A stretch of DNA of 64,000 nucleotides from Malus domestica. Lineage: Eukaryota; Streptophyta; Magnoliopsida; Rosales; Rosaceae. This document shows positions 19,991-64,000 of this stretch, in pieces. A program made the translations under genes and the position numbers. Location of the stretch: positions 22,011,501 through 22,075,500 of the forward strand of contig NC_091677.1 of NCBI RefSeq assembly GCF_042453785.1, given 5' to 3'. The notes beneath the pieces were generated by a model, which saw nothing but the letters and a program-made list of their open reading frames with translations, did not search any database and was not told the origin of the DNA. Numbering within the stretch: the stretch's first letter is position 1; every line of letters starts with the position of its first letter.

Positions 19991-20140
19991 GGAAAACTAA
20001 TGAAAAAAATATGAAAACTTTGAGTTTTAATGATAAGGACAAAATAAAGGGTAAAGGGAATAGTATCAGGTTTGACCTTTTAGTGTAAAAATATGATTTT
20101 TCGTTAAAATGAACAATACCGTGAACTTTTCGTTAAAACT
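19991..20140 (-). mobile_element. Short dispersed MITE, copy A
   Basis: Ends GGAAAACTAATGAAAA and TTCGTTAAAACTC, with a core GACAAAATAAAGGGTAAA..TTTTAGTGTAAAAATA. Four further copies of this family of about 150 bp lie at 39020, 49388, 55520 and 55982. The short inverted motif AACGAAAA / TTTTCGTT is near one end. Confidence 0.6.
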
Positions 20141-34552: not shown

Positions 34553-34709
34553 TTTACAGAAGCAATGGATTCATTTGAATTCAATTGAGTTTTTGGGAAT
34601 TCTGGAAACTGGGTTCAGTTGATTTATTTGGTGTTTGGTTCTTGGGTTTCTGCAGATTCATGGTGGTGAGATGAAAAAAAATGAAAGAGAACCGACATGA
34701 TTTCTTGTG

Positions 34710-36626: not shown

Positions 36627-37985
36627 ATGGAACTGCCCGAGTTCTACCTCGGCGGCTACTTCAACGGCGGAGCCACCACGTTATCGCCGGAAAAGAAGCC
36701 TACCGGCGGCGATTTCACCGTTGACGACCTCCTCAACTTCTCTAATGAAGACCCCTTCGTCACCACAGCGGACGGCGGCGGCGGTTTCTTTGACCCTGCC
36801 GCCCATTCCTCAGCGGTCACCGCCGTTGACAGCTGTAATTCCTCGGTCTCTGGCGGAGAGCCTCAGTTCTCCGGCAACCGGAGCTTTGGCGACTCTCAGA
36901 TCTCCGGCGACCTCTGCGTTCCGGTAAACCTCCAATTCCATTAATTCGTGAATTCTAATGATATTCATTAATTTTTGGCTTCTGCATGCAATTTGCATGA
37001 TCCTGACGTTAATTTTATAATGAACTATTTAACAAAATAGTTTATTTCGGGAATTGATAATTAAAATTATTTTTATTTTCAAATTATAATAAATTCATAT
37101 GTAATTGTTGTCCTGAAATGTAATTCGCAGGACAGGAGGATAATTCTTTATATATTGCATGCAATATATAGAATATACGATGATTACGATCACCACATTA
37201 CTTTTATGTTTGATTATTATGTAAAATTAATTAATTATTTATTGGCAAATTAATTGCAATTTTTATTAATTTGTATAATTAAAAATTGATTGCAGTACGA
37301 CGATTTGGCGGAGCTGGAATGGCTGTCGAACTTTGTGGAGGATTCTTTCTCAGCAGACAAGGATTTACAATCTCTCCAGTTCCTCTCCGTAAGCAACACA
37401 ACCAAACCTCAAACCCCCGAAACGTGTTCATCCTCCGAAACGCCTCAGAACGCACCGCTTTTCCCCTCCGAAACGCCTCTCCCGGGCAAGGCTCGAAGCA
37501 AGCGCTCACGCGCCGCCCCCGGAGACTGGTCCACGCGCCTCCTCCACCTCATCACTCCCAACAATGACACCAAACCTCCCACAACAACATTGCATAAGAA
37601 GAGAGATGGTGCCACCGGTGGGGGCAATTCGCATTCGGGTTCAGACTCTTCAGGCCGAAAATGCCTCCATTGCGCGGCTGAGAAGACCCCGCAATGGCGA
37701 ACTGGGCCCATGGGACCTAAAACTCTTTGCAACGCTTGCGGCGTCCGGTACAAGTCAGGTCGGCTTGTGCCCGAGTACCGGCCCGCCGCGAGCCCTACTT
37801 TCGTGTCGGCTAGGCACTCCAATTCGCATAGGAAGGTTCTGGAGCTCCGAAGACAGAAGGAGGTTCAGAGATCACATCATCATCAATTTCTGAGTCAAAG
37901 TTCCATTTTTGGCGTATCCAACGGTGGTCATGATGAGTACTTGATCCATCATCATAATGTGAACGATTTTCGGCAGATGATGTAG
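36627..37985 (+). CDS. GATA-type zinc-finger transcription factor (subfamily A)
   Basis: Two exons, 36627-36923 and 37296-37985, joined in phase 0 across a GT-AG intron of 372 bp; 328 residues. The N-terminus has [15 protein letters not shown] (about residues 30-44), the acidic segment typical of subfamily A plant GATA factors. Residues 100-115 read [16 protein letters not shown], also conserved in that group. A basic KARSKRSR (164-171) is a likely nuclear signal. The single type-IV finger spans residues 222-247 as C-X2-C-X18-C-X2-C, with [19 protein letters not shown], followed by [20 protein letters not shown]. The C-terminal tail is His-rich. Such factors bind (A/T)GATA(A/G) sites; the nearest Arabidopsis relatives are the GATA4/9/12 group, by memory. 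The intron sits at the same place as in other subfamily A genes. Intact. Confidence 0.93.
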
Positions 37986-39019: not shown

Positions 39020-39160
39020 GAAAAGAACAACTAATGAAAATGATTTGGAAACTTTGAGTTTTAACGAAAATAACAAAATAAAGGGTAAAGTGAATAGTAC
39101 CAAGATTGATTTTTTAGTGTTAAAATGAACAGTACCAGAAACTTTTAACTAAAGTTCTCT
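39020..39160 (-). mobile_element. Short dispersed MITE, copy B
   Basis: Core AACGAAAATAACAAAATAAAGGG..TTTTAGTGTTAAAATGAACAGTACC matches the family seen at 19991-20140. Confidence 0.6.
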
Positions 39161-44555: not shown

Positions 44556-46879
44556 ATTGACTGTTATTTAAATTAAACAAGTAACCTATACTTCCCATAA
44601 ATGTAGGAAAATGGTTTTGAAGAATCCGATGCATAGGATAGAAGCATGATGGGACTTGAACTCACAAGTTCTTTATGACGCATGACTAGGATTTAATAAC
44701 CACCTTGCAAGGATTTTTAGGGTTTGGCCTGAGTAGATCAGGGATTTTACTTGATGTAATCAAAATTTGTAACTAAACACCAGTTGAAATCTGTGAGGGT
44801 GTTGGCAACCGCCAATATCTTCAATTTCGATAAACAACACTGAAGTCATAGAATTAGCCGACCAATGAGCACTTTCAATTTAGATAAACATCATTGCTTT
44901 GAGACGGACTGATTATCTAAGTCTCTGTCAGCAAATAATCTCTAAGTACTTGTTGGAATAGGTCATCTTATTAGTCTAAAATTTCATCAACTAATGATAG
45001 CTCGATCAAGAAATGAAAGGAAGCACGCGAAATTATGTACAATCTTTTATTACATTCTTATTTTATTGATTACATTCCTATTTTGTTTGTGCTTACGAAA
45101 ATGGCATATCCCGTTGACGGTAGAGTCGAAACCGAAACTGCATGGTTAATCGCTGAAAGATGTTTTCTTGTGTGGAAGAAATTTCATGAAAATTATAGCA
45201 GTCGGTATGGAACTAGTCGTAGGAAAAGTGCACTTACTAGTTACTAATATGATAAAAAATTTGAGTTTTGCATTAGGCAAATATAGAGATGCTCAGACAA
45301 AAGCGGTGAAAATTTATCAAGGTGACACAAATATTGGGGATGAGGTAAAAAAATTTCTAATTTTTTTATTAGCACCTACATTTATTTTTTTTTGAAATAA
45401 TTAATTTTTTCCCACTTTATTTGTTTTAGTTGATGCAAGCAAACAGTTGGTACCTATTTTTGCCCAAATTCATCACAAGGTTCAACCATCACAAATGTTG
45501 GAAAGTTGTGAAAATTTTGCCTAAAATACTGAATTATTAAGCTTGTTTCTAATGTTGTTCCCAAAAGACGACGCTAAGAGGTGAGACTGACAGGGAGAGT
45601 GGTTCATTTTATAGAAGTCAAGTTGAGTATGCAAGGAACTTGAGATTGATAAAAAAGATCGAAAAGCTATGTTCATGAAGGTTGACGACAAAGCATCACC
45701 AAACACACAAGCTTTTTCAAGGCACAAATGAAGGAAAGTGACAAGAAGAAGAAATCTTTTCCATGATGACGGACATGGCATCTCGAATCTTAGTGAAGAC
45801 GAACCTAGCACCACAAATTGGTCTGGGTACATATAATTATCAGGTTATCTTATTAGATTTTTAAGATGTACCCGTTTTTATTTGAGAAATAGAATTTAAT
45901 TATAATGTTTCATTGATTTATGAAAAAATAAAAATTAACAAAGCACTTTAATTAAATATAATAGAACTATATATTAAACAAATAAATCTCGAATAGTTAC
46001 AAAAATGTCCTTTAATATTTACTCCTCATTATTTGGGCTTTAATTAATATAATCGCAGATTGCATCCGCTATATTAATTGAACATAGCACCAATTAATTT
46101 ACTTTTGCTCCTTATATTGTTCTTTTGCACTTTCCGAATTTACAGTTTTGTGAATTAAATCTTTGAAAATCTATATGCGCAGGTTTGAATCCCCAAGCAT
46201 GTCGTAGGTTTGGGATATGTCACTTGCGTTCGAGTTCAAATCTTTTTTCTCACAAGTTAGATGAAAGTGGAGTATTCACCAACTTGCATGGTCGGTCTTA
46301 TAATTCTTGTGCGACATAAATAAAAAAGTGTACATGTATAATTGTGTATTAAAGTCAATTTTGATGCTCCCAAGCTACATGAATAAAAATGGTTACACCA
46401 TTCACAGACTGTACATACATCATTGGATTTAGATTCATTGTCTCTGTTAGACTAAAAACTTGAGGGTTTTAGAAAATTGGAGGTCTTGTGCGGTAACACT
46501 ACATGCACCATCCTACTTAAGTTAGGGAAAATAATACTGGTTTTTTGGATATTCAGGATAGAACTACCTGCAACTTAGCCGGGAGGCAGGAAATGGGTTT
46601 TTGGATATTTAGGGTGTGTGAATAGTTGAATAGAGAATACTTTATTGTACCGCAAACATAAATTGATAACCAAGTGTTATTATATAAGTAATTGAGCAGT
46701 TCAAAATGATTTTTTGTTTGTTTATAATATGATATTTAGTATGCCAGACCGTGTTTTTGATACAATGAAAATTTTATGTGGCATGGTTACGTTTTTGTGA
46801 CATGGCGGTTCCGTAAATGAATCCAGAGGACATAGAAAAAAAAAATGAAACGAAAGAATCCGAAGTCCCACGTCTAAAA
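44556..46879. other. Intergenic DNA before the X-Y array
   Basis: A 48-codon frame from the ATG at 45101 (MAYPVDGRVE...) has no known family features. From 46170 to 46370 the sequence (TCGAGTTCAAATCTTTTT, AACTTGCATGGTCGGTC) is a diverged relative of the left part of the Y unit at 50440-50600. Confidence 0.4.
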
Positions 46880-48345
46880 GTGGACACATCAGCACTCTCA
46901 ACTCCGTGGGTAACCAGAGGTTTAGTCAGCTATGACTGCCCACTAGGTCTCTTGACTTGGGCTGGATCTTGTAAAAAGTTGATGGGCCTCAACGTGGGTT
47001 GTCTCAAAGCTTTCACACAACGGTACTTGAGAAAATAAAAGGTTAGGATTAGATGCAACATGCATGTTTGTAACTCAAGTGATTGATCTAAGTTCTATGT
47101 TATTTTTTTATGAAACATGGTGTGGCTAAGGTAGCTAGAGTAATGTACGAACATTGTTCTCGTTATATTTTCAATAATATCTCCAAGTTAGCACGTGTGT
47201 TATAACGGATAAAATCGTAATAAGAGAACAATCAAAATCATAATAGGAGATGGAATTTAAGAATGTTTTTAAGGAGACAATAATACCATATCTACTTGAA
47301 CAAGGTTGAATTGAATTCCAGATTTCCAATTGAGGAGTGAAGAGGAGGTGGTACCTAGTGACCCTGTCAATGGGTGTAAAAGTTGGGAAATTGACCATCT
47401 CCGGATTTCTTTCACCGACTTCACTAAATCAATAAATTTGGATCCTTGAAATTTGATTTAACGGTTAAAGTTATTATAACTTTTAAAGGAATCTCCAGTT
47501 TTTAACCGTTTGATCAAATTTCAAGATCCGAATTTATTGATTGGGTGGAGGGGTAGGTACCCCCTAGCTAAGACTGGACAAGATCAGCTTATCTCCTACG
47601 ATTTTGGTACGATGTAGGCAGCTTATCTCCTCAGACTATGACCTCAGGTCTGTGGCTGATGGGTGGAGACATCCAATCGGTACAAATTAATTGATTATGA
47701 TGGATCAATAGTAGAGCATTACAATAGCTGTGATTTCGTTCACCTAGCAAAGGATTCTGCATTTATGGAGTTGTTTATGATTTTTCATAAGAAAAATTAA
47801 AATAAAATTCAAAAAAAAATAATAATGAAAAAAAAAACAAATAAAGCCGTAGTGAAAGATACTACAAAAAGATAAAAAGGTAATTTTAGTCGGACCTGGA
47901 TTCTCTCCGAGGCAAACCCTCGGGATCTTGCTGAGCGACAAACACTACAAACAGGGAGTTCCTTTTAAAGTTATAATAATTGTAACCGTTGAATTGAAAT
48001 TGAATGACCCATGTTTGTCTCTCAGCATGATCCCTAGGGTTTGCCTCAGAGGATCCAGTTCCATTTTAATCACCATTCCGCCGTTATATAGTATCCTATG
48101 GCCAGAAGGTTGAGAGAAACAATATTTATTTTACCTTTGATTACCTGATTTATGACTCAACCGGATGTGATTTTGGAGTATTTTCCTTCACAAATAAGAG
48201 AATTAGGCATTTTAGTTGCCCCAAGAGTCGTTCTTGATCCCAGTTGCATACTGCACCTGTATGGTTCGTACCTAATCTTTGATAGGTTAGTTTAATTAAA
48301 TTTTGTTTTGTTTCCCTTTTTTAGTTGGAAAGATTTGCTTTTTTA
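46880..48345 (+). repeat. X unit, copy 1 (DUF295-like relic block)
   Basis: Three blocks match the second X unit in order: 46880-47380 with 54465-54945, 47560-47750 with 55690-55930, and 48070-48345 with 56756-57015. Shared strings include GGTAACCAGAGGTTTAGTC and CGATGTAGGCAGCTTATC. The third block carries the end of an F-box/DUF295-like fragment. Between blocks 1 and 2 is a foldback (47429-47541). Confidence 0.75.
47429..47541. repeat. Foldback with arms of about 42 bp
   Basis: ATCAATAAATTTGGATCC..TTTAACGGTTAAA is mirrored by TTTTTAACCGTTTGATC..GATCCGAATTTATTGAT. This copy of X has it; the second X unit does not. Confidence 0.7.
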
Positions 48346-49387
48346 TTTTTTTTTTATAAAAGTTGTTTACTTCTCATACAGTCATACTTATATGCACTTA
48401 ATACATATATAAATCATGTGAACATGCATATTTAATATAATTACTACATTTAATCATTCATGAACGGAACATAACTACATTGGGATCAAATTATATAAAA
48501 TAGATTTAATGTCGTGTGGAGTCTTGATTCAATAACTTTTTATTATTGTAGCAAGACGTCAATATAATGATAATCCCGTTTCATATAGTCCATTTTCCTA
48601 ACAAAGACATATCAAACACTGCATGAAAAAACGGCTACTGGGATAATGTTTTATGCGAAGCCTAAGAATTGTCACATTAGATCATGAACATCGTTCCACC
48701 CTATTGAGCATAACTTGCACTTGGAAATCTCCATGCTAGGCTCAGTAACGCTATGGATTATAAGTCTCCTTGTGTCGCAATTTTCGATAAGCCTTAAAAA
48801 ACGAAAATACAGATAAATAAGATTTACCATTATAGTAATAACTAATCTCCGAGCAAAAACCAAGACAACATCAAATTGTTGAGAAATTTTTTAATGTGCC
48901 GATAATATGTCAGGTACACCAAGTGTTGAATACTTAAAAAAATATTCAAATATTTGTCTTATAACACTTGGTATACCATGTCATTTTCCTGACACTGAAC
49001 ACTTCCTTTGAAATGGGCACACCGAACACTTCCTCCAAAATGCCAAAATGCCAACCAATGTCTTACCTAGATGTGAGAAGAATTTGTTGAGTTCTCCTAA
49101 CAAGTCTCCAAGACCAAGCTCTCGGTCACAGACCAAACCTAAAAGGATAAAACTAGAAGATGGAATTCAGTACTCACGATCTATCTTGTGGAACTGTTAG
49201 CTACATTGCAAAAAATGAAAGATTAGTTCAAAAGAAGATGATATAGAGAGAGATTGAAGGCTCTTGAATTGATTGATGTCTCTGATACAATAGGTCTAGC
49301 ATAATACACAAACACACATTACACCAAATGTTCTAATGCAATTTGTAGATTTTTATTTTAACTTTTCAACTAATTAAGTTATTACAT
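48346..49387. other. AT-rich spacer, no gene seen
   Basis: No coding signal. ACACTTGGTGTACC and its inverse form a small inverted pair near 48910-48975. Confidence 0.4.
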
Positions 49388-49540
49388 GGGAACTTTAACG
49401 AAAAGCTTACAGTATTGTTCACTTTAACGAAAAATCACATTTTTACACTAAAAAGTCAATCATGTTACTATTCATTGTACCCTTTGTTTTATTTTTATAT
49501 TAAAACTCAAAATTTTCAAACTTGTTTCATTTGTTTTCTT
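49388..49540 (+). mobile_element. Short dispersed MITE, copy C
   Basis: GGGAACTTTAACGAAAAGC at the start and TTAAAACTCAAAATTTTCAA near the end: the family of 19991-20140 in the opposite orientation. Confidence 0.6.
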
Positions 49541-49564
49541 TTATTACATTTTGTTATACCAAAC

Positions 49565-49770
49565 ATTGTTCCTGATAGATTTTCAAAAATCTCTACAAGT
49601 TATCATGTGTGTTATGATGGATAAAATTGTAATAGGAGAACAGTCAAAATCGTAATCGGAGATTGAATTTAACAATGTTTTTTACGAGACAATAATACCA
49701 TATATACTTAAAAAAAGTTGAATTGAAATCCCAATTTCCAACTGAGGTGTGAGGAGGAGGTTGGCCACTT
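49565..49770 (+). repeat. Partial third copy of X block 1
   Basis: ATGTGTGTTATGATGGATAAAATTG..GAGACAATAATACCATAT..CCCAATTTCCAACTGAGG aligns with 47140-47360 and 54745-54935. Confidence 0.65.
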
Positions 49771-51131
49771 GTTTTTTGTTTTTCTATTTTCATTTTCTGT
49801 TTGTCCAAAGGGGTACAAAACAGGTCATGGCCCGGAGATGACAAACACGACGATCTCGGGTTCCGATTCAATGCCGCCTCATACGGCTTTTTTTTTTTGG
49901 GAATTGTTTTCAATAACAACACCAAGCCTGCTCCAACAATTTTGGTCTAGCAATAGGTGGCTGCTTCGCTGTTTTGGTTTGTATTGTGAGAGAGCAAGGT
50001 GCCGGGCAAATGTGAGGGAGAAGCTGGTGTTTGGTTTGCAAGAATAGTAGATATGTTGGTGTTAATATTGCCTGCGAAAATATGTTGTTTCGACTTGTAT
50101 GGTCGGTCTTACGATATTTGTTTATGTAAATGAGTCTGGAATGTTCGAGTCCTAATTATCTTCCTCGGACACTTACCTGAGCTTCTGTTCTTATCCGTTT
50201 GATAAAAATCCCATGGTCGTAATATAAAGATCAAAGTTAAAATTGAAAATATAAAGATTATAATTTTCGATATAATCTTTTTTTCAAAGTGTGCACCTAA
50301 CTTATGTCGATACCAACATGTTTTGATTTCTGATAGTTTTCTATTAAATTATAAAATGTGTTGTCAACTCTGTATTTTAGTTTTAGATATAGTTTGTTCA
50401 TTGATTTTTATATTAATCATACTTGTAAAATATGTTGTTTCGACTTGCACGGTCGATCTTATGATATTTGCTTATGCAAAGAAATCTTGAACATTCGAGT
50501 TCAAATTTCTCTTTCCATAAGTTAAGTGAATTTAGAACATATCCAAATATGTTATTTCAACTTGCATGACCGATCTTATGATTCTTGTACGATACATGAA
50601 AAAAAACAGTAACATTTTGCGTAAAATGTATATAAGTGACCGGGTTTAAAAATTTAGCTTCTTTACATACTTGCATGACTACATGGACAAAAACAGTAAT
50701 AGTATCGATAAAATGTATAAAGTTAATTGCAAAAGGAATGAAAGGGCATAATGGTATTCTGGATATCAGTGGACTGAGAGGGATAATGGTTGGTGGGATT
50801 AAGTTTTAGGTTAAGGAGGTTTTGCACCAGTATACAGTTGCGGTCACAATGGCTACATGTTTTTTGATTTTCTGTTTTCCTTTTTCATTTGTCCATAGGA
50901 ATTTTTAGTACTCATTCCTACCAGCTGCTGCGTTTGAAATCCTATATTTACAGCTATAGTCACTTACTCACTCCCTCCCTCCCTTCTCTCTTACTCACTC
51001 CCTCTATCTCATTCCTCTGTCCCTCGTCTCTGTAAACTCGCTCCCTCTATCTCCTTCCCCCCTCCCTCTTCTCTGTAAACTCGCTCTTTCTCCTTCTTCT
51101 TTCTCCCTCTTCTCTCTTCCACCTTTCTGAA

Positions 51132-51344
51132 ATGGAACATCCCGAGTTGGCTAACATTCTACCTTTCGTTTACGGAGGTATTTTCCTGCTTTTTATTCTA
51201 TATACTTGTATTGTTTACTTAGGACAACCTGCGGAGGATGACAACCTCCGGAGGGGGAATGCTGCTCAGCTGAGCGTCATTCCCCCTCCGGAGGTTGTCC
51301 TTGAGCGTCATTCTCCTCCTCCGCAGGTTGTCCTAAGTAAATAA
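51132..51344 (+). other. 70-codon frame spanning a hairpin; function unknown
   Basis: It starts MEHPELANILPFVYGG, continues into a hydrophobic stretch (IFLLFILYTCIVYL, about residues 17-30), and ends in a Pro/Val-rich tail. It follows a strongly CT-rich leader (50980-51130) with a tandem duplication around TCTGTAAACTCGCTC. The frame is identical in copy 2 at 59439-59651. Most of it lies in the arms of an inverted repeat, and a GT (GGAG/GTATTT) after residue 15 could be a splice donor. I do not recognise the peptide and do not call it a gene. Confidence 0.35.
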
Positions 51345-51402
51345 TACAAGCATATAGGATAAAAAGCAGAAAAATACCTCCGTAAACGGAAGTTAGAATG
51401 TT
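51153..51402. repeat. 250-bp foldback in Y copy 1
   Basis: The left arm from AACATTCTACC and the right arm ending GGTTAGAATGTT-like are about 93% complementary over the outer 86 bp. The inner part AACCTCCGGAGGGGGAATG is exact, around a centre GCTCAGCTGAGC (51264-51275). The right arm has about 16 extra bases from a 31-bp internal duplication (GAGCGTCATTC..GTTGTCCT twice). Confidence 0.85.
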
Positions 51403-51404
51403 AT

Positions 51405-51705
51405 GTCGTTGATATAATTTGTATTTTTAGTTTTCGAATACATTTTTATTTTTTTTTCAAATACAGTCGAGGATATGTTGTTGATATGATTTGTATTTTT
51501 AATTTTTGAACACATTTTTATTTTTATTTTTTCAAATACAACTGACGGCATGTCATTGATATGATTTGTACTTTGGAATTTTTTTTTTCAAATACAGCCG
51601 ACGACATGTCGTTGATATGATTTGTATTTTTAGTTTTCGAATACATTTTTTATTTTTTTTTTCCAAATACAGTCGACTGCATGTTGATATGATTTGTATT
51701 TTTGG
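51405..51705 (+). repeat. T-rich tandem repeats, about 75-bp period
   Basis: About four degenerate units of the form GTTGATATGATTTGTATTTTT..TTCAAATACAGTCGA. The same array is at 59712-60010 in Y copy 2. Confidence 0.8.
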
Positions 51706-51983
51706 AAAGAGAAGCCTATGGCCGCACGAACCAGTAGCAGGAAGACAAGAATAGAGAAGAAAGGAAGATTATGAATCCGTTTCATTCCTTGGCCGTCTTC
51801 ATTGTGCCTCTCCTATCTTTGCTTTCCCATTCCATTTCCTTTCCTTTTGCTTTTCTGCGGCATTTCGTCGAGCAGGTTTTCTTCGATGTTTTTGTTCACA
51901 AATTGTTAACACTTACAACAGACATGTATGGTTCATCTTATTACCCGTTTTAAATTTGTGCTTTTCTTTTAATTACAGAAACC

Positions 51984-53680
51984 ATGATCAGATTGTTTAA
52001 AGTGAAAGAAAAGCAAAAGGAAACAGCTGAAAACGCAAAAGAGAATGGTCTCGTAAAGAAGCAAAGTGCAGGAGAATTGCGTCTTCATAGAGGTAAATAT
52101 GATTTTAGGATGTATATATGTTATGATTTGTTGCAATGTGGTACAAAGTTATACGCTTACATGCATATTAAGTTCCTAAATACACGTTTAACTCCAACGT
52201 ACGTAAAGGCAAGGTTTCTGTGTTTATTTTAATTCCTTCAACCAGTCCTTCAATTGTATTATGACACAGAAATCAACGCAATGACGTTTTAGGATTCATA
52301 TTGCCGATCCTATTTAGTGAGAAAAGGCTTTGTTGTTGTTGTTGTTGTTGTTGTCGTCCTTCAATTGTATTATGATGTTGTCTTGTAGATATAAGTGAGT
52401 TGAACATGCCAGAAGAATGCAAGATTTCATTCCCCAATGGAAAGGATGATTTGATGGACTTTGAGATTACCATTACACCTTATCGGGGATATTATATGTA
52501 AGTAACCTTTGATCTGAAGCTTCATTTGGCTCTCTATACGTTGTTTGGATTTTGCAACTTCGATGTCATCTTGCTGACACCGACATTTTGTACCTCTTGT
52601 CGCAGGGGTGGTGGGTTTGTCTTCACGTTTAAAGTTCCCGCAGTCTACCCTCATGAGCCTCCGAAGGTCAAGTGCAAAACCAAGGTAACGAAACCTTAGT
52701 TATATCAGAACTTAACTTTCGTGTATATTGGTTACGATCCAAACCATAATATATATCTGGTGTTGTATAATGCATACCATATGTGCAGATCTACCATCTC
52801 AACATCGACTTAGAAGGAAACACTTGACTTAACATTCTTCGGGAAGACTGGAAACCTGTCTTAAATATAAACACTGTTATTTACGGATTGTATCACCTAT
52901 TCACGGTATCTCTGATCGCAACACAAAATATTTCGTGACCTCAACCTCAATCATTTGGGGATGCAGTTATTAATAAAACAACAATTCAACATATCGTGTC
53001 TCCCAGTTCAACCTCAATCATTTACGGTCTTGTCTTGTGGCAAATTTTCAGCCCATAATTTGCGGGTGCATGTATAAAATCATAACTATTATACGTATGA
53101 TTTAGCATTTTGCTCATTCGGAGTATTAGATTAAACTCATGAAAACATAAAACTTCAGAGAAATGGGACTACATAGTGGCGGTGTCCCAATCCCTTATGC
53201 ATCGTCATGTGCTTTAATTTACTGACATAACATTTCATGATTAGTTTAAAACATCATCACTTTAGCATGTTAGTTGTATGCGAGTTCTTCTCCCAAAGAT
53301 GCATGAATGCAAATTGCAATCAGTTTTTCAGCATGTTTGATCCATATCCTGTAATTTTGGGTTGGGCCTGGTGAAATAGGCATTAAATGTTGGAATTCAA
53401 AGCCCATTATCTTACCCAAAAGCCGTTTTCCTTCTTCCTCTTGTGCAACTCAAATCCCCATGAACACTGTTATTTACGGATTGTATCACCTGTTCACGGT
53501 ATCTCTGATCGTAACACAAAATATTTCGTGACCTCAAACAAATTATCCGTTTTGTTGTTGCTAGGTTTTATTTGGATGTGTACCTGTTGTGAACTCAAAT
53601 CCTGCATTTCTTCATGCAGGAACCTAACATCGACTTAGAAGCGGGAGCTGTTGCTGAACCGAAATCAAATTCATCACAGT
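51984..53680 (+). pseudogene. RCE1: NEDD8-conjugating enzyme E2 (RCE1/UBC12) pseudogene, copy 1
   Basis: Exons 51984-52092, 52389-52497, 52606-52684 and 52789-52905, all with GT-AG junctions and correct phases. They read MIRLFKVKEKQKETAEN, KKQSAGELRLH, PNGKDDLMDFEITI, VYPHEPPKVKCKTK, then IYHLNIDLEGNT[19 protein letters not shown]. UBC12 enzymes take NEDD8/RUB1 from the E1 through a cysteine in [12 protein letters not shown] and pass it to cullins. Here that codon, number 112, is TGA (52825-52827). HPN is HLN, also unusual for an E2. A candidate last exon at 53621 (EPNIDLEAGA..) fits the family EPNSEDPLN only at its start. A 5' UTR intron seems present, with a donor near 51873 and an acceptor before the ATG. 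The splice sites and most residues are well kept, so inactivation looks recent. Confidence 0.9.
52323..52352 (+). repeat. (GTT)n microsatellite in intron 1
   Basis: About eight TTG units; the same tract lies at 60613-60642 in copy 2. The poly-Gln frame on the minus strand is only its shadow. Confidence 0.85.
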
Positions 53681-54029
53681 ATGCTTCCATGTCTTTCAAT
53701 GCATCTTTATAGCACCGTTTATTTTTCTAATTCCATTTGTGAGATGATATGGTGGCGATCAATTGTCAATTTAGGACAAAAATCACCCTAAAGATAGTCA
53801 GGTTCTTAGGAATATGATGCATCAGGGAAAGCAATAGAGATATTTTTATGTCCTCTAGATTTATGTAACGAAGATTATAGATCCCGAATGCATAATTTGC
53901 ATTTTTACATAGTATGTTGTTCCTACCACCTGATTTCCTTTGTCTTATTTATTAGACATAACCCTAAGTTTTCTGGATTTTGCCCTAGGAATAAATGCTG
54001 TATTTCTAGTGCATTTTATGAAATTGATA
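52892..54029 (+). other. RCE1: Sequence after Y copy 1, with a partial exon-4 duplication
   Basis: 53464-53541 repeats the end of exon 4 and the intron start (AACACTGTTATTTACGGATT..CACGGTATCTCTGATCG), also present at 52869-52942. A sequence with a TGCAG acceptor precedes the candidate last exon at 53621. The remainder is AT-rich. Confidence 0.55.
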
Positions 54030-54464
54030 GGCAGTGGAAAAAATCTTAAAGGTTATGATATGTCCTCTGGCCGCTAGGAGGCTTATCCTACGTTGACTAA
54101 AATCTTAAGGCTTAAGGATATCTTCCAATCATGCCGCTGGTCTTGGGTTCCGAGATCGGTCAATCTGGCGGCGAACCGCTTGGCGTCGAGAAGTAACACG
54201 GAGATGTGCGGGTCTACTTGGATTAGCCATCCCCCATCGTCGTTGGTTCATATTTTGAACAAGGATGGTCTCCCTTGTCCCCCATAATTGTATTTTGGTA
54301 GTGAAAGGGGTGACGCTTGGCACTTGGTGCTGTGTCTTTAGTCTGTACTCCCATCTTCACTGCTTTCTATTTTTCTCCTCTGGTTGTTGCCTCCTGGTAG
54401 GCTTCCTTGTGTTTTAGCTCCGGCCCTGTTTATGAATTTATCCAGTTTCTCAAAAAAAAAAAAA
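54030..54464 (+). mobile_element. 5'-truncated LINE fragment
   Basis: WSWVPRSVNLAANRLASRSN (about 54136-54195) is the C-terminal part of a LINE RNase H domain. It is followed by a 3' UTR and a 13-base A run (54452-54464). The left edge is approximate. X copy 2 begins directly after the A run. Confidence 0.7.
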
Positions 54465-55236
54465 TTGGACACATCAGCACTTCAACTCAGTGGGTAACCA
54501 GAGGTTTAGTCAGCTATATGACTCGGTCCACTAGGCCTCTTGACTTGGGCTGGATCTTGTAAAAGTTGATGGGGCCTCAACGTGGGTTGTGTCAAAGCTT
54601 TTACACACTACAGTACTTGAGAAAATAAAATGTTAGGATTAGATGCAACATGCGGGTTTGGAACCCAAGTGATTGATTTAGGTTGTATGTTATTTTTTTT
54701 ATGAACTATGGTGTGGCTTAAGGTAGCTAGAGTAATGTACAAACATTGTTCTCGTTATATTTTAAAAAATCTCTCCATGTTAGCACGTGTGTTATGATGG
54801 ATAAAATCGTAATAGCAAATGGAATTTAACAATGTTTTCAAGGAGACAATAATACGATATCTACTTGAATAGGGTTAATTGAATTCCAGATTTCCAATTG
54901 AGGAGTAAGGAGGAGGTGGGTCCCAGTGACCCTGCCAATGGGTGTAGGATTTTCTCCCTTCCTATTACCATCCCATTACATCCCCTCCTCTCACTCTTCT
55001 TTTTGCCTTATTTTCTATATAAAATTTTCAAAACAAGATATAAACATGGCGTAATTGCAACCGTTTAAATAAGAGGTGATGGAAGGGGGGCGAGATTAGG
55101 AGGGGAGTTCCTACTCCATAAAACTTGGACTCAGCAAATGTCACGCTTGTACAACAATTGTTGATGGCAGATCACCGACTGCTTAGAAGCCGGACTTGTC
55201 TTTGTTTTATAGGCTCAGGCGCAGACTGCGTGTCTG

Positions 55237-55463
55237 GCTCTGATATGGACAAGGATTGTCTGCCCTCCATTTCCAGTGCCCTCCTGTTTGTGTAATCACG
55301 GTTAAGCCACGTCAACATTTTATATTACTATTCATTTTTGTCTTATTATATATATAAAAAAAAAATATAAAATGTTGACGTGGCTTAACCATGACCACAC
55401 AAAACAGAAGAGCACGGGGAGGGCATCAGAAGTGGAAGGCAGACAATCCTTATCCCTCTGATA
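55237..55463. mobile_element. Foldback MITE (227 bp)
   Basis: Arms of about 85-90 bp: ATGGACAAGGATTGTCTGCC..AAGCCACGTCAACATTTTATA, and the inverse AAAATGTTGACGTGGCTTAA..GGCAGACAATCC. The centre is AT-rich. Confidence 0.8.
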
Positions 55464-55519
55464 TGCCATGCTGCAGGCTATAGATGTCCTAAACCCTTTT
55501 TTTGGAGCTTTGTTTTTTA

Positions 55520-55668
55520 AGAAAACTAATGAAATGTTTGAAAACTTTGAGTTTTAATCATAAAGACAAAATAAAAGGTAAAATAAATAATATCATAATT
55601 GATATTTTAGTGTAAAAATGTAATTTTTCGTTAAAATATACAGTACCGAGAGGTTTTCTCTAAAATTT
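55520..55668 (-). mobile_element. Short dispersed MITE, copy D
   Basis: GAAAACTAATGAAATG and TTTTAGTGTAAAAATGTAA match the family of 19991-20140. Confidence 0.6.
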
Positions 55669-55981
55669 GTTTGTTTTTGTTGTTTGGGGGTAGGGGTAGA
55701 CACCCCCTAGCTAAGACTAAGACTGGACAATATCAGCTTTTGTCCTAAGATTTTGGTACGATGTAGGCAGCTTATCTCCTCAGACTATGACCTCGTTGCT
55801 TTGGTCTGTGGCTGATGGGTGGACACGTCTAATTGATACAAATTCGTTGACTATGATGGATCAAGAGTGGAGCATTACAATGGCCGTGATTTCGTTCACC
55901 TGCCAAAAGATTTTGCATCTATGGAGTTGCTTTTTTATTTTTTGGAAGGAAAAGTCGACATCATTAACTTGAAAAATTATA

Positions 55982-56136
55982 AAGAGTTATAACGAAAAGA
56001 TCATAGTACTGTTTATTTTAACGAGAATTCACATTTTTATACTAAAAAGTCAAACTTGATACTATTTATTTTACCCTTTATTTTGTCCTTATCGTTAAAA
56101 CTCAAAGTTTTCAAGTCATTTTCATTAGTTTTCCTA
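55982..56136 (+). mobile_element. Short dispersed MITE, copy E
   Basis: AACGAAAAGATCATAGTACTG..ACTAAAAAGTCAAACTTG..TTTTCATTAGTTTTCCT, opposite orientation to copy D, 310 bp away. Confidence 0.6.
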
Positions 56137-56270
56137 AAATTATATTGTTTGTTGAATGAGAAGGTCCAGAATAACATTTGGAGGCTCCTCAATCCAAACT
56201 ACAAGCCTAAACAAGAAACATGTTTAATAGCCGATCCTTGGCATAAGGTCATGCTTGGAAAGACCTTTAG

Positions 56271-56630
56271 GAGTGGTTTGGGAGTGAGGTGCTTAAAAAA
56301 AAAAACACTCATGAAAAAAAGCTGTAAGGGTTTTAGGTGTTTGGTAAACTAAAAAAAAGGCTTATTTTGGAAGCTGCTGTGAGAATAAGCTGAAATCAAA
56401 GAAAAAAGCTGAAGCAGCTATTTACAGCTTTGGAAAACTAGTTTTTTTTTTCAAAGCACACAGAGTTACAGTGCTCCTTTAATGAAAATACCCACTATCA
56501 GACTGCTTTTTTTTTTTTTTTCCAAAAGCACTTTTACAAAAAAATTTACCAAACACTCGGCTGATTTATTTCACAGCCGCTTATTCTCACAGCAGCTTTT
56601 TGTCAAAGCACAACAATACCAAATCAGCCC
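56271..56630. mobile_element. hAT-like MITE (360 bp)
   Basis: Left end GAGTGGTTTGGGAGTG; right end, as reverse complement, GGGCTGATTTGGTATTG. The sub-terminal AGCTGCTGTGAGAATAAGC appears near both ends in inverted form. A fragment of the same family is at 13483-13686. Confidence 0.6.
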
Positions 56631-56633
56631 TTA

Positions 56634-56980
56634 GTTACACTGAGCCACCTAAGACTAAAGGATTTCGAGTGTTCAAACTGGAGTGTGATATTGATGCTGG
56701 TCCACAATGGATGCAGGTTGTTGAACTTGGTGGTCGGGTATTATTTGTGAGCAACCACCATTCCGCCGTATATTGTACTCTATGGTCAAAAGGTAGAAAA
56801 AAAACAATATTTATTTTGACTTTGATTACTCGTGTTATGACTCAACCGGATGTAACTATGGAATATTTTCCTTCACAAATAAGAGTATTAGGCATTTTAG
56901 TTGCCCCAAAAGTCGTTCTTGGTCGCAGTTGTATAGCACATCTTTATGGTTCGTACCCAATCTTTGATAGGCTAGTTTAA
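56634..56980 (+). pseudogene. F-box/DUF295-like (KIB domain) C-terminal fragment
   Basis: GFRVFKLECDIDAGPQWMQVVELGGRVLFVSNHHS (56660-56764) has the pattern of the DUF295 domain of plant SKIP23-like F-box proteins, where FxVFKLD..WVEVxSLGxRxLFVG is typical. The frame runs on to 56980 without family features. There is no F-box in reach, so this is a fragment. Its right part recurs in X copy 1 at 48070-48290. Confidence 0.6.
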
Positions 56981-57245
56981 TTAAATTTTGTTTTGTTTCC
57001 TTTTTTAGTTGGAAATATTTGCTTTTTTATTCTTATTCTTATGAAAATCGTTTACTTCTCATACTTATATGCACTTAATACATATATAACTAATGTGAAT
57101 ATATGTATTTAATACAATCTCTTTTATAAGCTAGAAAAATTTAGAGCATCTAGATATTATATTAATTTGCATGGTTGATCTTATAATCCTTGTGCGGTAT
57201 AAATAAAAAGTGTATATGTACAATCGTGGAAGTCGAATTGTGATG

Positions 57246-57440
57246 GTTAGACCTGGCAGTTTTTGACACGACACGGTGACACGACACGAAAACGACACGA
57301 AAATAACGGGTTTTGGGTTAACACGATAACTTATCGGGTCACTATCGGATGACCCGTTAAGAACCCGTTAATAACGGGTTCTTAACAGGTATACACGCGG
57401 GTAATACGTGGGTAACCTGTTTCGACCCGTTAAGAAAAAA
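57246..57440. mobile_element. hAT-type element end with CACGACAC repeats
   Basis: GACACGACACGGTGACACG, then GACCCGTTAAGAACCCGTTA and TTAACGGG-type inverted motifs, look like the sub-terminal repeats of a common plant hAT family. The other end is not seen. Confidence 0.45.
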
Positions 57441-57948
57441 ATATTTTAATAATTTTAAAATTTAATTACTAAAAGATTTATTATAAAATACAATAGTCAT
57501 ATTAATATATACAATATATTATATATTAAATATATAGTTTTGTATTATTGTTCTATGTAAATTATAAAAAAATAAAAAAAAGGGTTAGTCATTATTTATT
57601 TTTATTATGAGAGTTCCTTATTATCATTACTAGGATAAATTTTACATAACATATTCTTGTCCAAAATTAAAATATACTAGTATAGTATTTGTATATGCAG
57701 GAACTAAGAAGACATACATACAAGTATGGAAAATGTGAAAGAATATATAAACACTCGTGATTTATCATTATTCCTTCACGAATAGATAATTGTTACACTT
57801 ATATTATCGTTTAGATTTTTAAAATCCTTCAAACCCTCATGAATAATGTTTTTTATTTGAGGGCAAAATTAATAAAATTAATAATAATTATTGTAGAAGT
57901 GTAAAAAATGTAAAAAAATATATATACAATCACTCATATATAAAAAAA
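57441..57948. other. AT-rich spacer, no gene seen
   Basis: May be the interior of the hAT-like element; nothing coding. Confidence 0.35.
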
Positions 57949-58154
57949 GTAAATACTTTAAATTAAAGATCAAATTTATTCATTACATTCTTATAGGGTC
58001 GAGGAGTGTATCTGTAAAAAATCATCAAAATCGGAGCTAAAATAACCGTTAAATTGTGATTTTTCGTTTATAACCGTCGAAAACTTTTGTTCCGTTACGT
58101 AATGTCTGAATGTTTGTTTTTTACGATTTTTTATGTATGCGATCTCGGAATGTG
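57949..58154 (+). repeat. 206-bp direct repeat, copy 1
   Basis: GTAAATACTTTAAATTAAAG..GATCTCGGAATGTG is repeated at 58296-58501 with only about two differences that I can see (for example TTTTTCG / TTTTTTG). Confidence 0.85.
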
Positions 58155-58295
58155 TACAAATAAGTTTGACGGTTGGATCGTTGAACAAAGTTTCGTAGAA
58201 TGCATATTGCGTCAAAACAGTAGATTAAACAAACACTTAGAGTTAATATTATACTTCTATTAAGTATAAAATAAGTTTTTGTGGTATCTACTAGT

Positions 58296-58501
58296 GTAAA
58301 TACTTTAAATTAAAGATCAAATTTATTCATTACATTCTTATAGGGTCGAGGAGTGTATCTGTAAAAAATCATCAAAATCGGAGCTAAAATAACCGTTAAA
58401 TTGTGATTTTTTGTTTATAACCGTCGAAAACTTTTGTTCCATTACGTAATGTCTGAATGTTTGTTTTTTACGATTTTTTATGTATGCGATCTCGGAATGT
58501 G
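58296..58501 (+). repeat. 206-bp direct repeat, copy 2, at the Y2 breakpoint
   Basis: It ends at 58501, one base before Y copy 2 begins (CCGTTTGATAAAAATCCC at 58502). The junction of the segmental duplication therefore sits at the edge of this repeat. Confidence 0.85.
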
Positions 58502-59459
58502 CCGTTTGATAAAAATCCCATGGTCGTAATATAAAGATCAAAGTTAAAATTGAAAATATAAAGATTATAATTTTCGATATAATCTTTTTTTCAAAGTGTG
58601 CACCTAACTTATGTCGATACCAACATGTTTTGATTTCTGATAGTTTTCTATTAAATTATAAAATGTGTTGTCAACTCTGTATTTTAGTTTTAGATATAGT
58701 TTGTTCATTGATTTTTATATTAATCATACTTGTAAAATATGTTGTTTCGACTTGCACGGTCGATCTTATGATATTTGCTTATGCAAAGAAATCTTGAACA
58801 TTCGAGTTCAAATTTCTCTTTCCATAAGTTAAGTGAATTTAGAACATATCCAAATATGTTATTTCAACTTGCATGACCGATCTTATGATTCTTGTACGAT
58901 ACATGAAAAAAAACAGTAACATTTTGCGTAAAATGTATATAAGTGACCGGGTTTAAAAATTTAGCTTCTTTACATACTTGCATGACTACATGGACAAAAA
59001 CAGTAATAGTATCGATAAAATGTATAAAGTTAATTGCAAAAGGAATGAAAGGGCATAATGGTATTCTGGATATCAGTGGACTGAGAGGGATAATGGTTGG
59101 TGGGATTAAGTTTTAGGTTAAGGAGGTTTTGCACCAGTATACAGTTGCGGTCACAATGGCTACATGTTTTTTGATTTTCTGTTTTCCTTTTTCATTTGTC
59201 CATAGGAATTTTTAGTACTCATTCCTACCAGCTGCTGCGTTTGAAATCCTATATTTACAGCTATAGTCCCTTACTCCCTCCCTCCCTCCCTTCTCTCTTA
59301 CTCACTCCCTCTATCTTATTCCTCTGTCCCTCGTCTCTGTAAACTCGCTCCCTCTATCTCCTTCCCCCCTCCCTCTTCTCTGTAAACTCGCTCTTTCTCC
59401 TTCTTCTTTCTCCCTCTTCTCTCTTCCACCTTTCTGAAATGGAACATCCCGAGTTGGCT

Positions 59460-59709
59460 AACATTCTACCTTTCGTTTACGGAGGTATTTTCCTGCTTTT
59501 TATTCTATATACTTGTATTGTTTACTTAGGACAACCTGCGGAGGATGACAACCTCCGGAGGGGGAATGCTGCTCAGCTGAGCGTCATTCCCCCTCCGGAG
59601 GTTGTCCTTGAGCGTCATTCTCCTCCTCCGCAGGTTGTCCTAAGTAAATAATACAAGCATATAGGATAAAAAGCAGAAAAATACCTCCGTAAACGGAAGT
59701 TAGAATGTT
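59460..59709. repeat. 250-bp foldback in Y copy 2
   Basis: Same inverted repeat as 51153-51402, with no differences that I can see. Confidence 0.85.
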
Positions 59710-60273
59710 ATGTCGTTGTTATAATTTGTATTTTTAGTTTTCGAATACATTTTTATTTTTTTTTCAAATACAGTCGAGGATATGTTGTTGATATGATTTG
59801 TATTTTTAATTTTTGAACACATTTTTATTTTTATTTTTTCAAATACAACTGACGGCATGTCATTGATATGATTTGTACTTTGGAATTTTTTTTTCAAATA
59901 CAGCCGACGACATGTCGTTGATATGATTTGTATTTTTAGTTTTCGAATACATTTTTTATTTTTTTTTTCCAAATACAGTCGACTGCATGTTGATATGATT
60001 TGTATTTTTGGAAAGAGAAGCCTATGGCCGCACGAACCAGTAGCAGGAAGACAAGAATAGAGAAGAAAGGAAGATTATGAATCCGTTTCATTCCTTGGCC
60101 GTCTTCATTGTGCCTCTCCTATCTTTGCTTTCCCATTCCATTTCCTTTCCTTTTGCTTTTCTGCGGCATTTCGTCGAGTTTTGTTCACAAATTGTTAAAC
60201 ACTTACAACAGACATGTATGGTTCATCTTATTACCCGTTTTAAATTTGTGCTTTTCTTTTAATTACAGAAACC

Positions 60274-61181
60274 ATGATCAGATTGTTTAAAGTGAAAGAA
60301 AAGCAAAAGGAAACAGCTGAAAACGCAAAAGAGAATGGTCTCGTAAAGAAGCAAAGTGCAGGAGAATTGCGTCTTCATAGAGGTAAATATGATTTTAGGA
60401 TGTATATATGTTATGATTTGTTGCAATGTGGTACAAAGTTATACGCTTACATGCATATTAAGTTCCTAAATACACGTTTAACTCCAACGTACGTAAAGGC
60501 AAGGTTTCTGTGTTTATTTTAATTCCTTCAACCAGTCCTTCAATTGTATTATGACACAGAAATCAACGCAATGACGTTTTAGGATTCATATTGCCGATCC
60601 TATTTAGTGAGAAAAGGCTTTGTTGTTGTTGTTGTTGTTGTTGTCGTCCTTCAATTGTATTATGATGTTGTCTTGTAGATATAAGTGAGTTGAACATGCC
60701 AGAAGAATGCAAGATTTCATTCCCCAAAGGAAAGGATGATTTGATGGACTTTGAGATTACCATTACACCTTATCGGGGATATTATATGTAAGTAACCTTT
60801 GATCTGAAGCTTCATTTGGCTCTCTATACGTTGTTTGGATTTTGCAACTTCGATGTCATCTTGCTGACACCGACATTTTGTACCTCTTGTCGCAGGGGTG
60901 GTGGGTTTGTCTTCACGTTTAAAGTTCCCGCAGTCTACCCTCATGAGCCTCCGAAGGTCAAGTGCAAAACCAAGGTAACGAAACCTTAGTTATATCAGAA
61001 CTTAACTTTCGTGTATATTGGTTACGATCCAAACCATAATATATATCTGGTGTTGTATAATGCATACCATATGTGCAGATCTACCATCTCAACATCGACT
61101 TAGAAGGAAACACTTGACTTAACATTCTTCGGGAAGACTGGAAACCTGTCTTAAATATAAACACTGTTATTTACGGATTGT
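60274..61181 (+). pseudogene. RCE1: NEDD8-conjugating enzyme E2 (RCE1/UBC12) pseudogene, copy 2
   Basis: Exons 60274-60382, 60679-60787, 60896-60974 and 61079-61181 (cut). The same TGA replaces the catalytic Cys codon (61115-61117), so the mutation predates the duplication. Exon 2 reads PKGKDD where copy 1 has PNGKDD. A 17-bp deletion near 60176 removes the GT donor of the presumed 5' UTR intron (copy 1 has GAGCAG/GTTTTC). Exon 4 is broken after YGL, and no last exon follows. Confidence 0.88.
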
Positions 61182-61781
61182 GAAAGCGTGCACATGTACA
61201 ATTGTGAAAGTCAAACTTGTGATGCACACTAGCTACATGAATAAAAATAGTAACATTTTGCGTAAAATGTATATTTGTGACCGAGTTTAAAAATCTAGCT
61301 AGTCTACATACTTGCATGACTACATAGACAAAAACAGTAAGAGTATCCATAAAATGTATAAAGTTGATTGCAAAAGGAATGCAAGGGTATAATGATATTT
61401 TGCGTAAATATATATTCATATATTACAGGATGGGACATAAATAGGAAAATTAAAAAGTTCCACTATTTTTATTTTATTTTTCAAATTAAGAAGCATCTGG
61501 TTGCTTCGTCAAGGTAGTCTATTTTTTTGGAGTCCAAAAAGACTTACCGAGTTATTTTAGCCTCCATAGCCATTATTGTGTATGCACAAGCGTCAAAAAT
61601 TGAACAGAGGACATTACCGTGTGAAACATTGAAGATTGATTGTGGTCAACGAATACCATATAGGGAAAGAATTGTGTAGTCCTAATTATCTTCCTCGGAC
61701 ACTTACCTGAGCTTCTGTTCTTATCCGTTTGATAAAAATCCCATGGTCGTAATATAAAGATCAAAGTTAAAATTGAAAATA
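61182..61781 (+). repeat. Y-derived fragments and spacer
   Basis: 61240-61420 is a diverged copy of 50606-50770 (ACATTTTGCGTAAAATGTATA..TGCATGACTACAT). 61680-61781 matches 50151-50260 (CCTAATTATCTTCCTCGGAC..) and breaks at ATTTTTTTTC. The sequence between is unassigned. Confidence 0.7.
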
Positions 61782-62561
61782 TAATTTTTTTTCTTTTAGA
61801 TGGAAGTTTCCTGCATGTTTCACTTCCCCTCTTTACTTTACGTCTCAATATCCTCTAGCAATTATTCAGCAGCCATGGATGAGAGGGAGAGATAGAGATC
61901 GAGACGGGCGATATTTAAGGGTGAGAATCAAACTCAAGATGTTGAATACTTAATTAAATAAGGGGTACCCTTAAATAAGCTACAAGTCCATCGTTGGTTG
62001 AATTGAATGCTTGAATTTAGGCGAACTGTTATGTCTTCGGGCCATTGGGGCCAAGCCCGTCTAAGCTTAATTGTTGCTTATAGATAATTATTTGTAAAAA
62101 TCGTGTTTATTAATTAGCATATATGCTTCATGTATTCTTGGAACAATATGGGTTCACAATTTTAGTTCCTTAGCTTTGAATACAAAATGATACGACAAAT
62201 TCAAAAACTAGTTCCCGTTGTTAGACTCGTGTAACTTTATTAACAAAAAAGAAAAACATCAACCTTGTTTTATGAAACTGGCGGGGTGAGCTAGACCAGA
62301 GTAAATGAGCATCCAACCATAGCTTAATCCGAGCGACGCCATTTTTGTCTCTGACTTGACGGATCATAGACTGTATTCTGTGTTACAGTTGCATCCCAAA
62401 CTTGTTATATGAGAATAGTATGATATTTATTATTTCGATAAACTCGTTTTCGAGTTGCATATTAATTGGTTCCTCCCATAGGCTCTGTTTACTTCTCTTC
62501 CAACCCAAAACCCAGCAAAAGGCCAAAAATTTCAGTGGGTATATCTGTTCCATGCTGGGTC
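61782..62561. other. Intergenic DNA, no gene seen
   Basis: No conserved frame; short frames here overlap the Cassandra LTR on both strands. Confidence 0.4.
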
Positions 62562-62822
62562 TGCAACATCTCACATCGATCAACAGAGAGAAAGTGATAT
62601 GCCTTATATATACATGTTCACCTCCATTTACTACGAGACCTTTTGAAACCTCACTGGCTTCGAAGTTCATCGGAACTCCGAAGTTAAATGAGTTCGAGCG
62701 AGAACAATCCAAAGATGGATGATCCACTAAGAAGTTTTTGTGTTTTTCCATAAACAAAATCGTGCAAGCTGACCTAAAACAGATAATATCGTGCTACGAT
62801 AAAATCAGTCTGGAATGAGACA
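62562..62822 (+). mobile_element. Cassandra-type solo LTR with a 5S rRNA-like domain
   Basis: Starts TGCAACATCTCACATCG and ends GGAATGAGACA. A perfect target duplication GGGTC flanks it (62557-62561, 62823-62827). Within it, 62665-62740 keeps 5S rRNA sequence including CGGAACTCCGAAGTTAA and GATGGATGATCC, matching the Pol III internal control region. Cassandra is a non-coding TRIM retrotransposon known in Rosaceae whose LTRs carry a 5S domain. Many changes from the 5S pattern are C to T or G to A, as expected from methylated-C decay. Confidence 0.85.
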
Positions 62823-63562
62823 GGGTCTGCGTTGCCATGCTTGGTGTGTACTGAGGGGAGAAGTGCTGGGTCTGCGTTGTCGACACACCATCACAATATT
62901 TCAGTAATTTTCTGGGTCACCAAAATTATTGTATATATCTAATTTTAAATTGACTTGGTCGTTGCTTGGTCTTACACACCAGTCCAAAAACAAGGCTAAT
63001 TTGGTAAATTCATCAAAACCAGAAGCAGCAGAAAAGCCAGCCTCTTCCCTTCCTTCCCAAGCCCACTTAAACACCATGACCCAACCACTCCCACCCTCAC
63101 CAGAGAAAAATGCGTGACAGAGTCCTTACCATAGGTAAATGAAAGTTGTGGCCCTCCCTCAGCCTGCGGTCAATCAGTCATCCCTCCCTCAGCCTGCGGT
63201 CAATCAGTCATAGCTTGTCACATCTTTCATAAGTTCATAGGTTCAACTGGCATTTCCAAAAAAAAATGTGGAAACAAAGAATTTTGTTATTGCCAGAATC
63301 CAAATAAAGGTTTTACATATAATATTATTGTTTGTGTCAAACGATTATCACTTACTAATTATCTCCACTTCTTAAAGTTTCAAAGCTCATTTGATATCTT
63401 AATGATTTAAATAATAAGATTCAACTAGGGGTCCAAGTCGGAATGAGATTTTAATTTTTGACAATAAATTTTTTTGAATCTCTACACAAAAATTTCGAAT
63501 TTAATGTTTTTTCAAAAGTTGAAATGAAAATTTGAATGGATTGAGAGATTCTGATAACTTGG
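62823..63562. other. Spacer between Cassandra LTR and Y copy 3
   Basis: GGGTCTGCGTTG occurs at 62823 and again at about 62868. It contains a 30-bp tandem duplication (separate entry). No gene. Confidence 0.4.
63152..63211 (+). repeat. 30-bp tandem duplication
   Basis: Two identical copies, 63152-63181 and 63182-63211, of a unit starting CCCTCCCTCAGCCTGCGG and ending CAGTCAT. Confidence 0.9.
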
Positions 63563-64000
63563 AATTTTCGATATAATCTTTTTTTCAAAGTGTGCACCTA
63601 ACTTATGTCGATACCAACATGTTTTGATTTCTGATAGTTTTCTATTAAATTATAAAATGTGTTGTCAACTCTGTATTTTAGTTTTAGATATAGTTTGTTC
63701 ATTGATTTTTATATTAATCATACTTGTAAAATATGTTGTTTCGACTTGCACGGTCGATCTTATGATATTTGCTTATGCAAAGAAATCTTGAACATTCGAG
63801 TTCAAATTTCTCTTTCCACAAGTTAAGTGAATTTAGAACATATCCAAATATGTTATTTCAACTTGCATGACCGATCTTATGATTCTTGTACGATACATGA
63901 AAAAGAACAGTAACATTTTGTGTAAAATGTATATAAGTGACCGGGTTTAAAAATTTAGCTTCTTTACATACTTGCATGACTACATGGACAAAAACAGTAA
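63563..64000 (+). repeat. Y unit, copy 3 (start only; runs off the window)
   Basis: Matches 50262-50699 and 58569-59006 almost base for base (AATTTTCGATATAATC.., ending CATGGACAAAAACAGTAA), with a few changes such as CCACAAG for CCATAAG. Its left edge is 67 bp further in than the left edge of copies 1 and 2. Confidence 0.9.

Follow-up and report, generated by a model that had tools for sequence, protein, structure and literature searches.

A 64,000-bp stretch of the forward strand of Malus domestica contig NC_091677.1 (positions 22,011,501 to 22,075,500; referred to here as the window) carries, from position 46876 to its end, an alternation of two kinds of sequence: X, related to F-box-associated genes of the DUF295/KIB1-4 type, and Y, related to the NEDD8-conjugating enzyme (NEDD8 E2) UBC12, which in Arabidopsis is RCE1. 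Self-BLASTN of the window recovered the order X1, Y1, X2, Y2 and the start of Y3 (Table 1), which had been proposed in an original prediction made from the letters of the DNA. The coordinates of the Y blocks agree exactly with those predicted, and the X edges lie within about 100 bp of them. The "Y fragments" also mentioned in that prediction correspond to one older piece and to the probable left end of Y3. Y3 itself runs off the right edge of the window at 64000.

The two kinds of block differ greatly in divergence. Y1 and Y2 are 99.1% identical over 2,698 columns (expectation value, E, 0), with 5 of 2,679 aligned bases substituted (95% confidence interval 0.06-0.44%) and three indels of 1, 17, and 1 bp, and the Y3 body is 99.3% identical to each of them over 438 bp. 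X1 and X2, by comparison, align in three BLASTN blocks with identities of 85.9%, 82.7%, and 85.1% (E 2e-167 to 1e-76), which contain 46/478, 34/264, and 44/364 substitutions, respectively (124/1,106 in total). Counted in substitutions, the Y1/Y2 and X1/X2 divergences are ~60-fold apart. The copying of Y, or its last homogenisation, came long after X1 and X2 had diverged, as had been proposed from the near-identity of the one pair and the divergence of the other.

Table 1. Coordinates of the X and Y blocks and of the features associated with them, numbered from the first base of the window.
Feature	Position	Strand	Evidence
X1, decayed F-box-associated (DUF295/KIB1-4) relative of X2	46876-48441	+	BLASTN to X2
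Third X-like piece, shortly before Y1	49562-49761	+	85% to 47150-47349
Y1, stretch common to Y2	50195-52891	+	BLASTN, alignment
Foldback, near-perfect; copy in Y2 at 59459-59710	51152-51403		BLASTN self-inverted match
Tandem repeat between foldback and exons; 131-bp period, sub-period ~72 bp	51448-51707	+	BLASTN
Y1 exons 1-4, UBC12/RCE1-type NEDD8 E2	51984-52891; exons 51984-52092, 52389-52497, 52606-52684, 52789-	+	Splice sites, frame, Pfam, PDB match
Y1-only 3' continuation: exon 4 remainder, 78-bp duplication, likely exon 5 remnant	52892-53680	+	Flank comparison, pattern scan
X2, decayed F-box-associated pseudogene	54461-57118	+	BLASTN, Pfam
206-bp direct repeat; copies 57949-58154 and 58296-58501	57949-58501	+	BLASTN
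Y2, both ends shorter than Y1; exons 60274-60382, 60679-60787, 60896-60974, 61079-	58502-61181	+	BLASTN, splicing
Older fragment related to 50593-50761	61234-61402	+	90%, 17/169 differences
Probable left end of Y3	61678-61784	+	107 bp, 100% to 50148-50254
Y3 body	63563-64000	+	3/438 differences to Y1, same 3 to Y2

Conceptual splicing of Y1 and Y2 gives four exons in the same frame, separated by introns of 296, 108, and 104 bp that all have GT-AG borders; a retrocopy was rejected because the introns are retained. The spliced protein matches the Pfam UQ_con domain (E 2.9e-26), and human UBC12 is its best match in the PDB (E 9.9e-49, or about 1e-48; best 60 of 264 distinct sequences, E up to 0.001), which bears out the predicted NEDD8-E2 likeness. 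In the alignment with human UBC12 chain 4p5o_I, 77 of 137 residues are identical, and query residues 1-137 align with chain residues 1-136; that is, the UBC12-type N-terminal extension is present in addition to the UQ_con core.

Y differs from UBC12/RCE1 at the active site and at the 3' end. The frame is open for 111 codons and then ends in TGA, in Y1 and Y2 alike. In the alignment to human UBC12 structures, the residue found in the column of this TGA is S for chain 4p5o_I and A for chain 2nvu_C, and we take it to be the substituted catalytic cysteine of UBC12. Neither Y1 nor Y2 retains that cysteine, the TGA standing in its column, and neither has the HPN motif just before the active site: residues 102-104 are HLN in both copies, and both UBC12 chains have HP there. 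Since both copies carry the TGA, the stop is older than the separation of Y1 and Y2; judged by its sequence, Y had already lost its enzymatic function by the time of its duplication. The sole difference between the shared exons of Y1 and Y2 is one N-to-K change.

The 3' part of the gene is absent from Y2 and decayed in Y1. Past the right edge of Y2, Y1 goes on with the remainder of exon 4 and a GT donor, followed by a duplication of 78 bp (52867-52944 and 53460-53537, with 3 differences) and an AG acceptor followed by EPN codons at 53620, presumably the continuation expected in the UBC12 family. Each strand of the 64 kb has a single instance of the acceptor-plus-EPN pattern, and an exon 5 remnant at 53620 of Y1 is likely from this arrangement. 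For a 70-residue frame upstream of Y exon 1, a Pfam search at E up to 1 gave no family. Searches for relatives of the Y protein in viral and general genome contig collections gave 6 and 73 pattern matches, none of them related, as expected for a plant gene.

A foldback of 252 bp is located upstream of exon 1 of Y. Folded as RNA, the sequence 51140-51415 has a minimum free energy of -190.4 kcal/mol with 121 pairs, 7 of which are G-U, compared with a mean of -68.8 (SD 4.8) for shuffled sequences (0/200 as good, z = -25). This amounts to -0.69 kcal/mol per nt; the values of six further foldbacks of the window lie between -0.30 and -0.49. Because the window has many foldbacks, a miniature inverted-repeat transposable element (MITE) is the default reading, and the Y foldback resembles the MITE-like foldbacks in being an inverted repeat. 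It differs from them in being much more complementary; a search confined to the window found no copy outside Y, and a target-site duplication is not established.

The prediction that X is DUF295-like is supported for X2 on a frame-joined reading. In a single frame, X2 matches the Pfam KIB1-4 beta-propeller family (DUF295) with E 9.3e-4 and 19.2 bits, below the cut-off of 27.4 bits, and it passes this cut-off only when two frames are joined across a frameshift (PF03478 positions 180-241, E 2.4e-7, 31.0 bits). X1 has no Pfam match of its own, either in three forward frames or as a fragment; its frame at 48118 aligns with the DUF295 tail of X2 over 54 codons with one internal stop. Over these 54 codons the nonsynonymous divergence (Ka) is 0.13 (15.5 differences/130.3 sites) and the synonymous divergence (Ks) is 0.20 (5.5/31.7), too few differences for a selection test. 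No F-box match was found in X1 and X2 at E up to 10 in three forward frames, the reverse frames not having been scanned. In contrast to F-box DUF295/KIB1-4 genes, X has no open frame, with a frameshift in X2 and a stop in X1, and contains several insertions; foldbacks are found in the gaps between the matched X blocks in both copies, in X1 at 47419-47550 and 47892-48062. On these features of their sequence, X1 and X2 are classed as pseudogene fragments. The third X-like piece differs from X1 at 30 of 200 positions, and the overlapping stretch 49560-49764 is 74% identical to 54740-54920. Sections of one study of F-box genes describe highly variable copy number and many pseudogenes, termed genomic drift, with DUF295 as a frequent partner module (PMC3030570), and a survey of pseudogenes in plants includes DUF295 in its table of enriched Pfam families (PMC7935947).

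X and Y had also been predicted to amplify jointly. A spacer would travel with a duplicated X-Y unit, and the spacers were compared with one another using short words (10 spacer-spacer comparisons, E up to 1e-3). Five matches were obtained. Four are short dispersed repeats, 42-97 columns long and 65-81% alike; the fifth is the left edge of Y3, where 50139-50194 matches 61669-61724. Apart from these, there is no detectable homology between the spacers separating X and Y in the 10 comparisons, and the shared spacers and junctions expected of a tandem X-Y array are missing. Since the spacers are unrelated, the duplications of X and Y appear to be separate events of different times, and a repeating X-Y unit was rejected; the disparity in divergence likewise goes against joint amplification. 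As far as the sequence tells, the "X-Y array" is an order, not a repeating unit.

Short dispersed repeats lie around X and Y at 46281-46366, 57164-57245, 61183-61274, 50077-50157, and 50427-50507. Another, with copies 80-88% alike in both orientations, occurs at 19977-20153 and 39029-39127, in the X1-Y1 spacer (49391-49540), and inside X2 (55515-55681 and 55972-56148).

The edges of the Y copies are irregular. Y2 is shorter than Y1 at both ends and its right edge is mid-exon. At its left edge, the two copies of the 206-bp direct repeat have 2 differences and are 141 bp apart, the second ending exactly at the start of Y2. Y3 appears to be in two pieces. Its probable left end comprises 47 bp of the left flank of Y1, absent from Y2, and the first 60 bp of Y (BLASTN E 1e-49, and 7e-60 for the older fragment). 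The two pieces are 1,778 bp apart, versus 7 bp for their counterparts in Y1; the 1,778 bp may be an insertion in Y3, or may have been lost in the ancestor of Y1 and Y2. The age difference between Y3 and Y1/Y2 is not significant (3/545 vs 5/2,679, Fisher p = 0.14). Y1 reaches the exon 4 remainder and likely exon 5, and its left flank recurs at Y3. As the longest copy seen, it is the likely source of Y2 and Y3, a direction that we infer from the extent of the copies.

Y shows neither the fixed ends common to all copies nor the target-site duplication of a class II transposon: Y1 and Y3 share DNA beyond the left edge of Y2, the right edge of Y2 lies within an exon, and no matching target-site duplication was seen by eye at the outer flanks of Y2. 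Transposition of a defined element is not supported by these edges and flanks, and unequal crossing-over is disfavoured, Y1 and Y2 having no common flanks. Filler-DNA repair is described as a route for copying gene pieces in plants in parts of two papers (PMC3445842, PMC4423477), and the former includes, in one passage, a wheat pseudogene that was tandemly duplicated after losing function. Y2 resembles the plant gene-fragment duplications ascribed to such filler-DNA (patch) repair: its ends are arbitrary, it is a truncated copy of a nearby sequence, and an extra local block stands at its junction. The same route may therefore apply to Y2.

We favour, with a probability of about 0.72, a history in which a NEDD8-E2 copy that was already dead was recently duplicated nearby, amid older F-box-associated debris, that is, ordinary neutral pseudogene turnover. 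In this history X1 and X2, two old pseudogene pieces of the F-box-associated (DUF295/KIB1-4) kind, would have adjoined an intron-bearing, already disabled UBC12/RCE1 copy, Y1. At a much later time at least two further copies, Y2 and Y3, would have been made within ~13 kb from Y1 or from its immediate ancestor, probably when double-strand breaks were repaired through synthesis-dependent copying, or template switching, that drew on a nearby Y. This repair route is proposed because the ends of Y2 are arbitrary and truncated, a 206-bp copy is welded to its left edge, and Y3 is in two pieces. The X-Y-X-Y order would then be a by-product, and neither part would be expected to act as an enzyme or as a subunit of an SKP1-cullin-F-box (SCF) complex. 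We infer the neutrality of Y from its sequence.

Several points weigh against recent neutral duplication by this route. Proof of template switching, in the form of microhomology, is missing at the Y2 junctions. Over 111 codons the Y frame is free of indels, and its three introns keep GT-AG, which an old neutral pseudogene need not do, and the Ka/Ks test on X is tiny, with 5.5 synonymous differences. In the literature, passages of PMC3445842 argue that most pseudogenes there formed after insertion, not by insertion, and passages of PMC3030570 report that the F-box genes lacking a recruitment module are enriched in predicted pseudogenes. In addition, the 8 differences between Y1 and Y2, comprising 5 substitutions and 3 indels, are all confined to a span of 1,476 bp out of 2,698 bp (p = 0.06 by permutation), which leaves room for gene conversion.

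Such clustering in the middle of Y, away from the ends, would fit a history in which Y1 and Y2 are old duplicates of the same age as X1 and X2 that were kept alike by gene conversion, and local direct pairs of their length are good conversion substrates. The identity of Y1 and Y2, however, reaches the edges of homology on both sides and includes introns, repeats, and upstream DNA, and the neighbouring 206-bp repeat (2/206) and Y3 (3/438) are also young, as recent copying predicts. We regard gene conversion as unlikely, and new duplication of Y is the simpler explanation. Assemblies are known to fail at near-identical copies, and Y2 or Y3 might be an assembly artefact, either a misplaced haplotype or a repeat-graph error. 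It is very unlikely that they are: a misplaced allele would have brought homologous flanks, but the flanks of Y1 and Y2 differ on both sides, the two copies are separated by substitutions as well as indels, and Y3 has 3 private differences.

Two readings in which Y has a function are, in our estimation, highly improbable. In one, Y is expressed as a truncated NEDD8 E2 of 111 residues, which would keep the N-terminal docking segment but not the catalytic site and would serve as a decoy for the NEDD8-activating enzyme (E1) or for DCN1, its dosage being raised by local copying. The N-terminal segment of UBC12 docks on E1, the corresponding segment of Y aligns end to end with human UBC12, and the open frame and three GT-AG introns are kept in both copies; moreover, the DCN1-UBC12 interaction is regulated through N-terminal acetylation of UBC12, according to part of one report (PMC3968751). 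Against a decoy, the stop falls in mid-domain, which makes stable folding improbable. Moreover, 17 bp are missing from Y2 at ~95 bp upstream of the ATG, and the start is preceded by a foldback of ~120 pairs. That foldback is the basis of the other reading, in which Y would be a young hairpin-RNA locus: the former NEDD8-E2 promoter and leader would drive a ~120-pair hairpin that is cut by DICER-LIKE enzymes to small interfering RNAs (siRNAs), the downstream frame would be at most a Cys-less E2 fragment, and local copying would multiply the source. Highly complementary hairpins are, in a section of PMC10004981, the first substrates of siRNA-producing Dicer-like enzymes.

Other features of the window include two pieces of possible retroelement origin near the Y and X blocks. 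By eye, the sequence 62555-62830 resembles the long terminal repeat (LTR) of a Cassandra-type (5S-bearing) retrotransposon; this is unproven, and an Rfam search of 61600-63700 at E up to 10 gave no match to 5S, but 2 weak matches resembling small nucleolar RNAs, neither of which reached the gathering score. The sequence 54050-54460 resembles, by eye, the 3' end of a long interspersed nuclear element (LINE); its poly-A run ends precisely where X2 begins. Rfam gave 0 matches at gathering level in the whole window, and a transfer RNA scan of the window found none. Elsewhere, a 309-codon stop-to-stop frame at 21414-22340 matches Pfam WD40 (E 5.2e-32, six matched stretches) and is presumably SEC13-like, as judged by eye. 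Pfam matches were also found to a GATA zinc finger (37290-37982, +), a LURP-one-related protein (34094-34570, −), and ribosomal L14 (9863-10159, +). Retroelement-like remains occur at 30247-30588, with a weak reverse transcriptase match (E 0.023, below cut-off), and at 35011-35730, with an RNase H-like RVT_3 match (E 2.1e-18). Tandem repeats at 1872-2228 have copies 84-93% alike, are open in three frames, and encode HPNSPTT / TQIHLQ-type repeats.

The original prediction went on to suggest a functional pairing of F-box and neddylation sequences. It finds no footing here: Y is without the catalytic cysteine, and X is without an F-box match and is frameshifted or stopped. The locus is not named in the titles of the literature on NEDD8-conjugating enzymes and apple, among the matches listed. 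It provides a worked example in which two families of the cullin-RING pathway lie side by side, and yet their dead copies were duplicated separately and differ greatly in how far they have diverged; proximity is therefore no evidence of functional pairing. Should the hairpin upstream of the Y exons be transcribed, the locus would allow the birth of a small-RNA gene to be tested. Annotation pipelines could count Y1, Y2, and Y3 as extra NEDD8 E2 genes; because of the stop at the active-site cysteine, Y1 and Y2 should not be counted as such.

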